From: Sphingomicrobium lutaoense
Lineage (GTDB): Bacteria; Pseudomonadota; Alphaproteobacteria; Sphingomonadales; Sphingomonadaceae
Assembly (NCBI RefSeq): GCF_014195685.1
Contig: NZ_JACICF010000001.1
Span: 505,317-569,316, forward strand
Direction: 5' to 3'
DNA length: 64,000 bases
Under the pieces are notes generated by a model that did not search any database, was not told where the DNA came from, and saw nothing but the letters and a program-made list of their open reading frames with translations. Shown one piece after another: positions 34,693-44,738 of the stretch; the first letter of the stretch is position 1, and each line of letters starts with the position of its first letter. The translations under genes were made by a program, and so were the position numbers.

Positions 34693-36972
<2,280 letters not shown>

Positions 36973-38898: not shown

Positions 38899-40335
38899 TC
38901 AGGCAGCGGTATCGATGCCGAGATCGCCCAGCTTGCGGTACAGCGTGGAACGACCGATGCCGAGGCGGCGGGCCACCTCGGTCATGCGTCCGCGATAATG
39001 GCCGATGGCAAGGCGGATGAGGTCGGCCTCGATGTCGGACAAGGTGCGGATATGTCCTTCCTCGTCATAGATGGTCACGGGGCCCGAGCCTTCGAGAGCG
39101 CGGTCGCTCGAGGATTTGGACAGTTGCGGCGCGGCGTCGGTGCGCCGCCCCGAAAAGCGCGACTGGACCGCGATATGGGGGAAATCCTCCGCGGTCAGGC
39201 TGTTGCCGTCGCACTGTACCGCGGCGCGGAACAGCGCGGCGGAAAGCTGCCGCAGATTGCCCGGCCAGCCATAACGCATGAGGACGGCCAAGGCGTCATT
39301 GCCAATCGACAGAGCGCGCATTCCCGGCTGGTCGGCGATGCGCGACAGGAAATGGCGGGCAAGCGCGGGAATGTCGCTCGACCGGTCGCGGAGCGGCGGA
39401 AGCGTGACGATCGTGGTCTCGATTCGCTCCTTGAGGCCAGCATCGAAGTCGTCTGGCAGCGGCCCCGAGGCGGTCGCGATCAGGCGCACGTCGACGCTGC
39501 TAGAACCATTGCAGCCGACAGGGCGCACTTCGCCCGTGGCGAGAACGCGGTCGAGCGCGGCCTGCGTTTCGGCGGGCAGCGAGGTTATGTCGTCGAGGAG
39601 GATGGTGCCTTCATTGGCCTCGACGAGCTTGCCGACCTTTTCGCTGAACGCTCCCGGGAAGGCGCCCGGGACATGGCCGAACAATTCACTGTCGATCGCG
39701 TTGGGCGAGATCGCCTTGCAGTCGACCACCACGATGGGTGCGCGATTGCGCAGGCTGGCGGCGTGGATGGCGCGGGCGAAGCTTTCCTTGCCCGCGCCCT
39801 GTTCGCCGATGATCATCACGGGAAGGCGGTTGCGCGCGGCCTTGGCAGCGACCGCCAGCGCGGCGCGGAACTGGGGCGCGGCGCCCACAAGCTGTTCGAG
39901 GCTGAGAGTGGGAGCCAGTTTTTCGGAGAGCGGCGCGAGTTCGCCCGCCGGGCGGCGGCGGTCGGCATGGGTCGCGAGCGCCTCGGTCAGGCGCTCGGGA
40001 GCGACGGGCTTGGCGAGGAAATCGGATGCGCCTGCCTGCATGGCTTCCACTGCGAGGGGGATCGAGCCGTCCTCGGCGAGGACGATGACCGGCAAATCTT
40101 CCTTCTGGTCGCGGATGGCCGCGATCAGGCCCGGACCGTTTTCAGAATCCCAGCTCGACAGGATGGCGGCGCGCACTTCGCGACCATGCGGGCCCTGGAG
40201 CAGGCCTTCGGCGGTCTCCTTGTCGGCGGCACTCACCACGGTCCAGCCAGCGCGGCCTGCCACCGACGCCAGAAGGCGCCGTTGCTCCGCGTCTGAATCA
40301 AGCAGCAACAGGGACCGGATATCATCTTCGCGCAT
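38899..40335 (-). CDS. NtrC-family AAA+ regulator with degenerate receiver and GAFPGA loop
   Basis: 478 residues. The receiver-like domain (about 7-120) has Ser60 where the phospho-acceptor Asp belongs (AAILSSWD) and Ala where the switch Thr belongs (IVLAEDG), but keeps FLAKPV. The AAA+ domain (about 145-380) has a Walker A GEQGAGKES, GHVPGAFPGAFSE in place of GAFTGA, a Walker B GTILLDDIT, and the LPPLRDRSSDIPAL arginine region. A Fis-type HTH closes it (MTEVARRLGIGRSTLYRKL). The altered loop suggests that it may not contact sigma54 normally. It may act with sigma70 like Rhodobacter NtrC, or as a repressor. Confidence 0.85.
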   Translation of the reverse strand: MREDDIRSLLLLDSDAEQRRLLASVAGRAGWTVVSAADKETAEGLLQGPHGREVRAAILSSWDSENGPGLIAAIRDQKEDLPVIVLAEDGSIPLAVEAMQAGASDFLAKPVAPERLTEALATHADRRRPAGELAPLSEKLAPTLSLEQLVGAAPQFRAALAVAAKAARNRLPVMIIGEQGAGKESFARAIHAASLRNRAPIVVVDCKAISPNAIDSELFGHVPGAFPGAFSEKVGKLVEANEGTILLDDITSLPAETQAALDRVLATGEVRPVGCNGSSSVDVRLIATASGPLPDDFDAGLKERIETTIVTLPPLRDRSSDIPALARHFLSRIADQPGMRALSIGNDALAVLMRYGWPGNLRQLSAALFRAAVQCDGNSLTAEDFPHIAVQSRFSGRRTDAAPQLSKSSSDRALEGSGPVTIYDEEGHIRTLSDIEADLIRLAIGHYRGRMTEVARRLGIGRSTLYRKLGDLGIDTAA

Positions 40336-40484
40336 ATCGACTCCTTGACCGGGATCCTAGCGGGCGATGGTGAAGGTGTGGTTAAGGGAGGAAAAGCCCT
40401 TTAGAAGCGCGTTGAGGCTTGATACAGAATAAGCATGACCTGTGGCTCGCAGGGGCCGCTTTCGAGATAGATAAAGGGACTTTC

Positions 40485-42280: not shown

Positions 42281-44581
42281 TCAGGCGACTTTCTGGCGTT
42301 TCTCTTTGGTTAGTCTGCGAACCATTTCGCCGCGGCCCATGGGGCGTCCGACGATAAAGCCCTGAACGATATCACAGCGCATCATCTCGAGCTGGTCGAG
42401 GATATCGCGGTCCTCGACGCCTTCGGCGACGACCTTGCGGTCAAGCGAATGGGCAAGCGCGATGGTCGACTGGACCATGATGAGATCAGAGCGGCTTTCG
42501 CGCATGCCGCGAACGAAGCTCTGGTCGATCTTGATCTCGGTGGCAGGCACCTTCTTGAGATAGTCGAGCGTCGACAGGCCGGTGCCATAATCGTCGATCG
42601 AAATCTGCACGCCCATGTCGCGCAGCTGGTTGAGAAGGTCGATGTCGGCCCCGCTGCCCTCGAGAGCGGCGGTTTCGGTCAATTCGAGGGTCAGCTGGTG
42701 CGCGGCGACGCCGTGCCGGTCGAGTAGCGAGCGCACGCGGTCGGGTAAATTATGGTCGGTGAGGTTTCTTGCCGACAGGTTGATCGCGATGTTGAAACCC
42801 GGGACGTGGTGCGAGAAATCGGCGATCGCGGCAATCGAATTTGCGAGGACAAAATCAGTGAGTCTGCCGATGCGGTCATGCTGTTCGGCGGCGGCAATGA
42901 ATTCGGCGGGACTGATCGGCCCTTTTTCAGGGTGGGTCCAGCGGGCCAGCGCTTCGGCACCGACGAGCTTCTTGGTTTCGAGTTCGAGCTTGGGCTGGAA
43001 GGCGAGCCAGACCTGCCCCTGCTCGATCGCTTCATCAAGCTGACTAAGGAGCGACAGGCGCCACGAAACTTCCTGCTGGCGCGCGGGGTCGTGATATTTC
43101 CACTTGATCGCTTCCTCGTCAGCCTCGTCGGCGGCGACCAGCGCGCTGCCGAGACGGTTGGCGAGGCTGCGTCCCGAGCCGACCTCGACGCCGAAGCTGA
43201 CGGTAAGGTCGAACGCATTCTGGTCGATCTTGACCGGGCTGCGGAACAGGGCGTGGAGCGCTTCGAGATGATTGCCGATCGCGGTGCGCGGCTCGGCGAA
43301 CCAGGCGAAGATGCCTTCATCGCCTTGATACAGCGTTCCGCCTTCCTTGCGCCCGATGCCGAGACGCGAAGCGATCTGTTCGACCAGTTGGCGTTCGCCC
43401 TCGGCATTCAGGGTGGAAACGATCTCGGCGAAATTGTGGACGCGGGCGGCGATGAGCGGCAATTCCTTGCCGCGCTTGTCGCCGCGCAGCGCCACGAGAT
43501 TGGGCAGTCCCGACAGTTCGTTCACGAAGCCGCGCGATTGGAAGTAGCGATAGCCCTGGATCGAGGAGACGATGGCCAAGGCGAACAGCCCGGGCGCGAT
43601 GTCGACGAAGATGAGATGCGCTTCGGTCAGGATGGGAACAAGGGCCAGCGTCGCGCCCGCAGCGACCAGACCGCCGACCCGCACCGTGCTTCGCGACGCG
43701 AAGACCGCGATGGCGCAGCCCAGGAGTGCGACCAGAAGCGACGGCCACCATCCGAGTTGAACCGGCCGTCCGCGCATCAGCGTTTCGGCGCCGAGAATCT
43801 GCACATAGACGCCGGCCTCACGGCCCTTGCCCGGAATATAGACCTGGTCGCCGAGCTGCATCACGCTGATCCCGACCACCGCGGTCTTGCCGCGCAGCAT
43901 GTCGAGCTTGCTGTCGTCGCGTAGCAGGTCGACCACATTGACCTTGGGCACGCTGTCGTAGCGGATCGAATAGTCGATCGGGAAGAGCTCGCCGACCTTA
44001 CCGTCTACCCCCGCCATCTTCGACGCGAAGCTGGGAATGTCCTTGCCGAGCACATCCTCGCGATAGTGGAGGTCCCAGACCGCGGTCTGGAAGTTGAAAT
44101 AGGCATTGATCGAGGCGAGGTCGGCGGCTTTCTGCAGATCTTCGAGTGGCAGTTCGAGCTGCGAGCCTGCCGAATCGCGGTCGCGTTCCTCGACGGCGGC
44201 AATGGTGACGTTGCCGGCGCGGCGGATCGCCTCGACGAGGCGGGAATCGTCCCGGGGCGTGGTGCGCCCGGCGAAGACCATGTCGAAATAGACCGACTTG
44301 GCTCCGGCCTCGCGCGTTCGGTCGATGATGTCGGCATGAATCGAGCGCGGCCAGGGATAGGCGCCCAGTTCCTCGACGCTTTTCTTGTCGATCTCAATGA
44401 GAACGATTTCGCCGCTGGCCTCATTCTCATGGGCCAAATTACGGAGCACGCGCATCACATCGTCGAGCGGCGAGCCGAACTCGACGAGGCCGAACAGGAT
44501 CGCCGCCACCGCCGTCCAGATGAACAGCTTTGACGAACGGCCCTTGGCAGCCTTTCCATCGATGTCGCGGCGCTCGGCCAT
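42281..44581 (-). CDS. CHASE2 - degenerate GGDEF - EAL signalling protein
   Basis: 766 residues from the ATG at 44581 (AGGA upstream). An N-terminal membrane segment (about 20-40) is followed by an extracytoplasmic CHASE2 sensor (about 45-275, with VLIEIDKKSVEELGAYPWPR) and three membrane helices (about 277-350). A GGDEF-like domain follows (about 360-490) in which the signature reads QGDEGI, so it should not make cyclic di-GMP. The EAL domain (about 520-755) has FQPKLEL, GAEALARW, NLSARNL, LELTETA, SIDDYGTGLSTL, IKIDQSFV and VAEGVEDRD, all consistent with active phosphodiesterase. It probably lowers cyclic di-GMP in response to an external signal. It lies between pntA and pntAB on the opposite strand. 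Confidence 0.9.
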   Translation of the reverse strand: MAERRDIDGKAAKGRSSKLFIWTAVAAILFGLVEFGSPLDDVMRVLRNLAHENEASGEIVLIEIDKKSVEELGAYPWPRSIHADIIDRTREAGAKSVYFDMVFAGRTTPRDDSRLVEAIRRAGNVTIAAVEERDRDSAGSQLELPLEDLQKAADLASINAYFNFQTAVWDLHYREDVLGKDIPSFASKMAGVDGKVGELFPIDYSIRYDSVPKVNVVDLLRDDSKLDMLRGKTAVVGISVMQLGDQVYIPGKGREAGVYVQILGAETLMRGRPVQLGWWPSLLVALLGCAIAVFASRSTVRVGGLVAAGATLALVPILTEAHLIFVDIAPGLFALAIVSSIQGYRYFQSRGFVNELSGLPNLVALRGDKRGKELPLIAARVHNFAEIVSTLNAEGERQLVEQIASRLGIGRKEGGTLYQGDEGIFAWFAEPRTAIGNHLEALHALFRSPVKIDQNAFDLTVSFGVEVGSGRSLANRLGSALVAADEADEEAIKWKYHDPARQQEVSWRLSLLSQLDEAIEQGQVWLAFQPKLELETKKLVGAEALARWTHPEKGPISPAEFIAAAEQHDRIGRLTDFVLANSIAAIADFSHHVPGFNIAINLSARNLTDHNLPDRVRSLLDRHGVAAHQLTLELTETAALEGSGADIDLLNQLRDMGVQISIDDYGTGLSTLDYLKKVPATEIKIDQSFVRGMRESRSDLIMVQSTIALAHSLDRKVVAEGVEDRDILDQLEMMRCDIVQGFIVGRPMGRGEMVRRLTKEKRQKVA

Positions 44582-44738
44582 AAACGCATCCTGCAATTGC
44601 CCCTTCGCCTATCGGACAAAAAGGTTATTAAATCGGAAACCTCGATCGGGTTAACCACCCGCCGGGGCGCTCCCCCTACAGCCTCTCGACAGCGCCCGCC
44701 ATGCTTGCCACAAGATGCGTGAAGAAAAGGGGGCGTGC

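Follow-up and report, generated by a model that had tools for sequence, protein, structure and literature searches.

Gene, Domain Architecture and Motif State

The window, a stretch of 64,000 nucleotides from Sphingomicrobium lutaoense, contains on its minus strand an open frame of 478 codons plus stop (38899..40335, ATG at 40335), here termed the tacA-like gene. These coordinates had been given exactly in an earlier sequence-only reading of this DNA; all features of the gene described below lie on the same strand. The encoded protein begins with a receiver-like domain (residues 8-122, 39970..40314), detected both as a fold match and with the Pfam Response_reg model (46.4 bits, cut-off 30.2). 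This is followed by an AAA+ domain with its lid (residues 146-395, 39151..39900; Sigma54_activat 144.3 and AAA_lid_14 72.2 bits) and by a Fis-type HTH (residues 431-476, 38908..39045), supported by Pfam HTH_8 (45.6 bits) and by its conservation. The score against the sigma54-activation domain PF00158, 144.3 bits with a cut-off of 20.2, indicates the AAA+ fold typical of bEBPs. The predicted structure suggests an intact fold (mean pLDDT 82.2, with blocks of 82-94 over residues 151-390), and the model matches the structures of NtrC1, FleQ, NtrX and PspF. The protein ends in Ala-Ala (38902..38907), a possible ClpXP-type degron, and upstream of the gene lies a CtrA-like box, TTAA-N7-TTCA (40371..40385), which differs from the full form TTAA-N7-TTAA.

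Alignment to relatives showed that several residues central to the activity of a sigma54 activator have been replaced. First, the receiver has Ser60 at the column of the phospho-acceptor Asp (40156..40158) and Ala87 at that of the conserved Thr (40075..40077), as the sequence-only reading had claimed, with Lys109 and Asp13 retained. Second, the sigma54-contact L1 loop does read GAFPGA (39649..39666). Third, the apparatus for ATP hydrolysis is incomplete: Asp249 stands for the Walker B Glu, Asp205 for the Glu-switch Asn and Asp298 for the R162-equivalent Arg, and the sensor I Asn is Ser290. Of the statement that the Walker and HTH regions are kept, the Walker part was therefore half right. The Walker A motif (GEQGAGKES, 39781..39807) retains its Lys183 and the recognition helix is preserved, but Walker B (ILLDD, 39589..39603) is altered, reading LDD. 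Of the two arginines of the R-finger loop (FDAGLKER, 39424..39447), only the R168-equivalent Arg304 remains. By alignment, the protein has thus lost the sigma54-contact Thr, the phospho-acceptor and parts of the hydrolysis apparatus.

Two further genes of the neighborhood are recorded here as side observations. A CcrM-like adenine methylase (N6_N4_Mtase and RAMA domains) is encoded at 34879-36030 of the window; across loci of unequal length, such a methylase is found near tacA in 19/50 window-clade, 9/41 Thr and 15/42 non-Thr loci. Beyond pntA, positions 42281-44596 code for a CHASE2-EAL protein, possibly a c-di-GMP enzyme, which is found near tacA in 16/50 window-clade loci.

Affinities to the TacA Family

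The sequence-only reading had placed the protein in parallel to Rhodobacter NtrC or TyrR, a placement that the family models do not support. It scores 253.2 bits against the NtrC model TIGR01818 (curated cut-off 558.6), 180 bits against the TyrR model NF008085 (curated cut-off 576) and 219.9 bits against the NtrX model (curated cut-off 600), and we rejected membership in all three. A search of the genome with the protein recovered three further bEBPs, NtrX, PrsR and PspF, each above its own cut-off. NtrX (row L002) lies at C1:875910-877256, and the matches of the window protein in its own genome include no NtrC ortholog.

In a tree of 18 TacA rows, including the window protein and the Caulobacter protein, and 10 paralog rows, the TacA rows form one branch with support of 100/99. 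The Caulobacter row L106 was taken as TacA because of its Asp at 54 (position counted manually, beginning at MTKT), its Ala-Gly end, its GSFTGA loop and the published list of the four Caulobacter bEBPs, NtrC, NtrX, FlbD and TacA, in which the motif is assigned to FlbD and TacA (PMC10274813); D54 and the Ala-Gly degron of TacA are named in PMC7010744. Among the four bEBPs of the window genome, the best whole-length match of L106 is the window protein, though narrowly (288 bits, against 275 and 268 for PrsR and NtrX). The margin is clear only in the HTH segment, which is 66% identical to that of the window protein, compared to 36% for NtrX and 33% for PrsR; for PspF this comparison gave no piece. 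These sequence affinities are best explained if the window protein is orthologous to Caulobacter TacA and represents it in Sphingomonadaceae.

TacA matches at E <= 1e-85 were found in 255 of the 297 genomes of the family. The remaining 42 have no match at this threshold, and 20 of them, when searched again, showed none at 1e-58; the tacA-like gene can therefore be lost.

Motif Losses among the Orthologs

Of 260 loci with a family hit, 219 distinct full-length orthologs remained once 21 sequences identical to others, 4 partial genes and 16 rows that were paralogous or distant (own paralogs, L221-L225 and L114-L118) had been removed. L064, one of these partial genes, lies on a contig piece of the record whose counterpart carries the internal TAG mentioned below. 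In the analyses of family motifs, dN/dS and the promoter box, row groups were defined by percent identity, and two Sphingomonadaceae rows with the loop Thr (L218 and L220) therefore fall into the 'outgroup'.

At the loop position, 107 of the orthologs have Thr, 84 Pro and 28 Ala, and the pattern [GND][AS]F[TPA]GA is kept in 219/219. Single-base changes of Thr codons lead to Pro and Ala, and also to Ser, Asn, Lys and Ile, of which none was seen among the 219. The sequence-only reading held that orthologs with a normal loop and sigma54-dependent target promoters would speak against it. Normal-loop orthologs do exist (the 107 of the 219), but they lie in other parts of the tree, which indicates that the Thr was lost in the window lineage, and our searches did not find their target promoters. 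The state of the window protein is also not peculiar to a single genome: all 51 distinct window-clade orthologs are without the loop Thr (47 with Pro, 4 with Ala) and without the phospho-acceptor Asp, and 48/51 are without the receiver Thr.

Other losses vary with the loop residue. The RED motif of the R-finger is missing in 88/112 non-Thr rows (51/51 in the window clade and 37/61 of the other non-Thr rows), compared to 1/107 Thr rows, the single exception being L180, with the loop Thr present and the R-finger lost. The phospho-acceptor Asp is missing solely among non-Thr rows (0/107 Thr rows are without it); within the family it is kept in 63/63 Thr rows and 58/61 other non-Thr rows, and in 0/51 of the window clade. 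The window clade has further lost the R162-equivalent in 51/51, the Glu-switch Asn in 50/51 and the sensor I Asn in 48/51 rows, with Walker B losing its Glu in 18/51 and its Asp in 7/51. Retained are the Walker A Lys (50/51) and the R168-equivalent and sensor II Arg (both 51/51), of which the R168-equivalent is Arg in just 23/61 other non-Thr rows. Since some motifs have also decayed in Thr-loop family rows (the receiver Thr in 6/63; the Glu-switch Asn, sensor I Asn and R168-equivalent in 4 to 6/63), the order of loss is not strict for every motif.

Order and Convergence of the Losses

The main tree was built from 161 of the 219 rows without the trait columns, after the window clade had been reduced from 51 rows to 26 and the outgroups to 9. 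On this tree the loop Thr requires a minimum of 9 changes, the R-finger 4 and the phospho-acceptor Asp 2; two other tree builds gave 7 and 9, 4 and 3, and 2 and 2, respectively. The count on the main tree comprises eight Thr-loss clades and one likely regain of Thr (L180). The R-finger and Asp losses nest inside Thr-loss clades, as does L180. The loop Thr state has thus undergone a minimum of 7 to 9 changes, of which one is probably a regain.

A joint-state model in which the rate of R-finger loss depends on the Thr state was favored (LR 11.0, p ~0.0009), with the root fixed as intact and the result resting on few events (3 to 4 R-finger changes). When Thr and R-finger were compared by independent pairs, the test lacked power (median p 1).

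Constraint, Promoter Box and Gene Neighborhood

Against these losses stands a DNA-binding region that has hardly changed. HTH residues 453-467 are identical in 175/175 family rows, except for R456 (174) and G459 (172), and this holds for both Thr states. For the receiver, AAA+ domain and HTH, respectively, dN/dS (NG86, median of pairwise values that are not independent of one another) is 0.28, 0.21 and 0.08 in the window clade, 0.41, 0.28 and 0.09 in Thr rows, and 0.37, 0.38 and 0.08 in the other non-Thr rows. The low values show that the window clade is constrained. By these sequence measures, the ATP-binding Lys, the sensor II Arg, the R168-equivalent Arg and the DNA-recognition helix are kept under purifying selection, and constraint on the AAA+ domain seems slightly weaker in the other non-Thr lineages.

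The upstream box is similarly widespread. The pattern TTAA-N7-TT[ATC]A, written after viewing the window-clade alignment and scored with rows of fewer than 90 upstream bases dropped, occurs in 44/51 window-clade, 47/52 Thr and 56/60 other non-Thr rows (147/163 family rows); shuffles that preserve single-base content only predict 0.6 occurrences overall, and the outgroup set has 3/43. None of the 163 family rows carries the full TTAA-N7-TTAA form. The box is a candidate CtrA-binding site: CtrA is encoded in the window genome (419.7 bits, cut-off 350), tacA is described as a direct CtrA target in Caulobacter (PMC7010744), and CckA-ChpT-CtrA are reported as kept in Sphingomonadales, with CpdR and RcdA often kept as well (PMC2877005).

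At the C-terminus, 148 of the 175 family rows end in Ala-Ala and 10 in Val-Ala; Ala-Ala is found in 3/50 long frames of the window. This end may act as a degron. The gene neighborhood is also stable: among loci long enough, PntA is encoded divergently upstream in 50/50 window-clade, 37/41 Thr and 40/42 non-Thr loci, and in 8/40 of the outgroup.

Sigma54, Paralogous Activators and Candidate Promoters

The sequence-only reading had proposed checking the genome for rpoN. The gene is present here (420 bits) and above cut-off in 296/297 family genomes, which led us to reject rpoN loss as the cause of the loop change. PrsR and PspF of the window genome keep the loop Thr, and its NtrX is without the GAFTGA loop; of eight paralogs scanned (three from the window genome and five from five other genomes), seven have the loop Thr, the exception being NtrX. 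Thus, the loop substitution does not reflect a general decay of sigma54 control.

We also rejected the idea that -24/-12 promoters are fewer in non-Thr genomes, as there was no clear difference: perfect sites number 127 (control 25) in 40 Thr genomes and 106 (control 28) in 40 non-Thr genomes. At <=1 mismatch, the window genome has 19 sites versus 15 in the control. The similar promoter counts in the two states lend no support to uncoupling from sigma54. Its only perfect sigma54-type site (near C1:316837) precedes a small membrane-like protein (L306:1138-1494) with no Pfam match, which also follows a sigma54-type site in other genera (L285, L299 and L301).

The palindrome TGTCCG-N4-CGGACA was considered as a TacA operator and rejected; it is present in 16/40 Thr and 10/40 non-Thr genomes, and is therefore probably the site of another bEBP. 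In genus g70 (L267, L270, L271, L274 and L326), a perfect -24/-12 site lies upstream of pcm, with one or two such palindromes further upstream that look like the enhancer of another bEBP. Of the 30 genomes examined, the remaining 25, two g70 members included, have no such site before their best pcm match. The sigma54-site and palindrome searches yielded neither a TacA operator nor a target promoter.

Functional Interpretation

We consider it likely that the window protein is a TacA ortholog that descends from a sigma54 activator and now regulates, as a DNA-binding protein, independently of sigma54. This upholds the regulatory part of the sequence-only reading, namely sigma54-independence with the ATP-binding residues kept, as the best-supported account, although in a lineage that is neither NtrC nor TyrR. 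The loop Thr is critical for the sigma54 contact in PspF (PMC2941729), and the PspF T86A variant is reported to retain its ATPase without engaging the sigma54 complex (PMC4132715); a natural Thr-to-Pro or Thr-to-Ala change would therefore be expected to break the coupling between ring and sigma54.

On this basis, the conversion might have proceeded in steps. The change of the loop Thr to Pro or Ala would first uncouple the AAA+ ring from sigma54. The hydrolysis motifs would then be free to go, followed by phosphorylation. The resulting protein would bind ATP without productive hydrolysis and might use this binding for oligomerization, for which the retained ATP-binding and interface Arg residues are a fit, being compatible with an ATP-set oligomer on DNA. 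Such an oligomer might form on the ancestral TacA operators and repress or activate promoters of other sigma factors. The window-clade protein is best read from its receiver as no longer phosphorylatable; with no phosphorylation expected, the amount of protein would depend on synthesis driven by CtrA and on proteolysis via the Ala-Ala end.

Comparison with characterized systems helps to place these features. Caulobacter TacA, of the ShkA-ShpA-TacA phosphorelay, resembles the window protein in its domain order, HTH and small-residue C-terminal end, and the CtrA control known for it (PMC7010744) has a counterpart in the CtrA-like box of the window gene. In contrast, its Asp54, loop Thr and R-finger are all intact, and it governs sigma54-dependent genes, staR among them (PMC10274813). 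The NtrC proteins of R. capsulatus and Caulobacter, which are without GAFTGA, deploy a bEBP fold at sigma70 promoters, and by analogy the window protein may do the same; for R. capsulatus NtrC, ATP binding rather than hydrolysis is described as needed (PMC10274813). In those proteins, however, the loop is deleted and the phospho-acceptor Asp is kept and used, whereas the window clade shows a single substitution in the loop and has lost the Asp. VpsR of Vibrio cholerae, which we read as the protein given as VspR in PMC10274813, is likewise without GAFTGA, acts at sigma70 promoters and does not require phosphorylation according to that source. Its AAA+ fold superimposes on the predicted model of the window protein with a Z of 25.2 and an rmsd of 2.2 over 235 residues. 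It differs in binding c-di-GMP, as stated in the title of entry 7v2b. The NtrX of the window genome is also without the GAFTGA loop, yet belongs to a separate family.

An alternative is that the protein is an antagonist that occupies the sites of an active bEBP, or enters mixed rings with it, and so blocks sigma54 transcription. DNA binding and the ring-interface residues (the R168-equivalent and sensor II) do appear from the alignment to be kept while engagement is lost, and linked PspF dimers with a T86A subunit are reported to give no efficient activation (PMC4132715). Yet every genome listed has a single match at 1e-85, leaving no second TacA to poison, and the HTH of TacA bears only a weak resemblance to those of NtrX (36%) and PrsR (33%) of the window genome; we regard this role as unlikely.

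It is also improbable, in our estimate, that the protein remains a sigma54 activator through its GAFPGA or GAFAGA loop, sigma54 itself or the remainder of the loop having adapted. Such adaptation would accord with the invariant pattern of the loop, with the RED motif retained in 24 non-Thr orthologs outside the window clade, and with region I of sigma54, which reads TQQL instead of TPQL in 4/4 window-clade genomes examined (L009, L375, L376 and L377). This change sits in the activator-contact region; the other family members examined read TPQL or TPQM (37/37). Against it, TPQ is kept in 17/17 other non-Thr genomes examined (TPQM in one), just as in 20/20 Thr genomes examined, and compensation in region I was rejected, none being seen outside the window clade. 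Moreover, PspF and PrsR of the window genome, which must share the same sigma54, keep their Thr, PspF T86A does not engage, and the window clade has lost the R162-equivalent, Glu-switch Asn and sensor I Asn almost throughout.

That the regulator is decaying like a pseudogene and has lost all function is very improbable: several catalytic motifs are lost, the gene is missing from some genomes, one fragmented, 79% complete genome of the window genus (G026) has a piece with an internal TAG, and AAA+ dN/dS is higher in other non-Thr than in Thr rows, but the remaining window-genus matches listed all read without a stop, the folded domains of the window clade stay at 0.08 to 0.28, the recognition helix is nearly invariant, and the promoter box and neighbor are conserved.

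Conversion to a sigma54-independent regulator leaves one observation aside. Thr has changed to Pro or Ala about six to eight times, after which the rest of the loop is frozen, unlike in the NtrC and NtrX lineages with the loop deleted. Plain uncoupling does not explain this conservation, as deletion is tolerated elsewhere, including in the NtrX of this genome. Because the loop stays frozen, we tentatively raise a further possibility, one less likely than not: the GAF[P/A]GA loop might be a repurposed contact surface, by which an ATP-set ring, still timed by CtrA and proteolysis, reaches a partner other than activated sigma54. It would then represent a convergent, recurrent second class of L1 loop.

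Our literature searches found no paper on the role of the TacA cell-cycle regulator in sphingomonads and none joining GAFTGA and Sphingomonas; in the portions of PMC7010744 and PMC11082216 available, sphingomonads are named in the reference lists only. Conversions of bEBPs to sigma54-independence have been known singly. Here, one syntenic ortholog family appears to contain several independent conversions at different stages, the loop Thr going first, the hydrolysis motifs next and the phospho-acceptor last. Intact sisters occur alongside them, and all share the same DNA-reading helix. The family would thereby offer a natural, testable series for how an AAA+ activator turns into an ordinary regulator.
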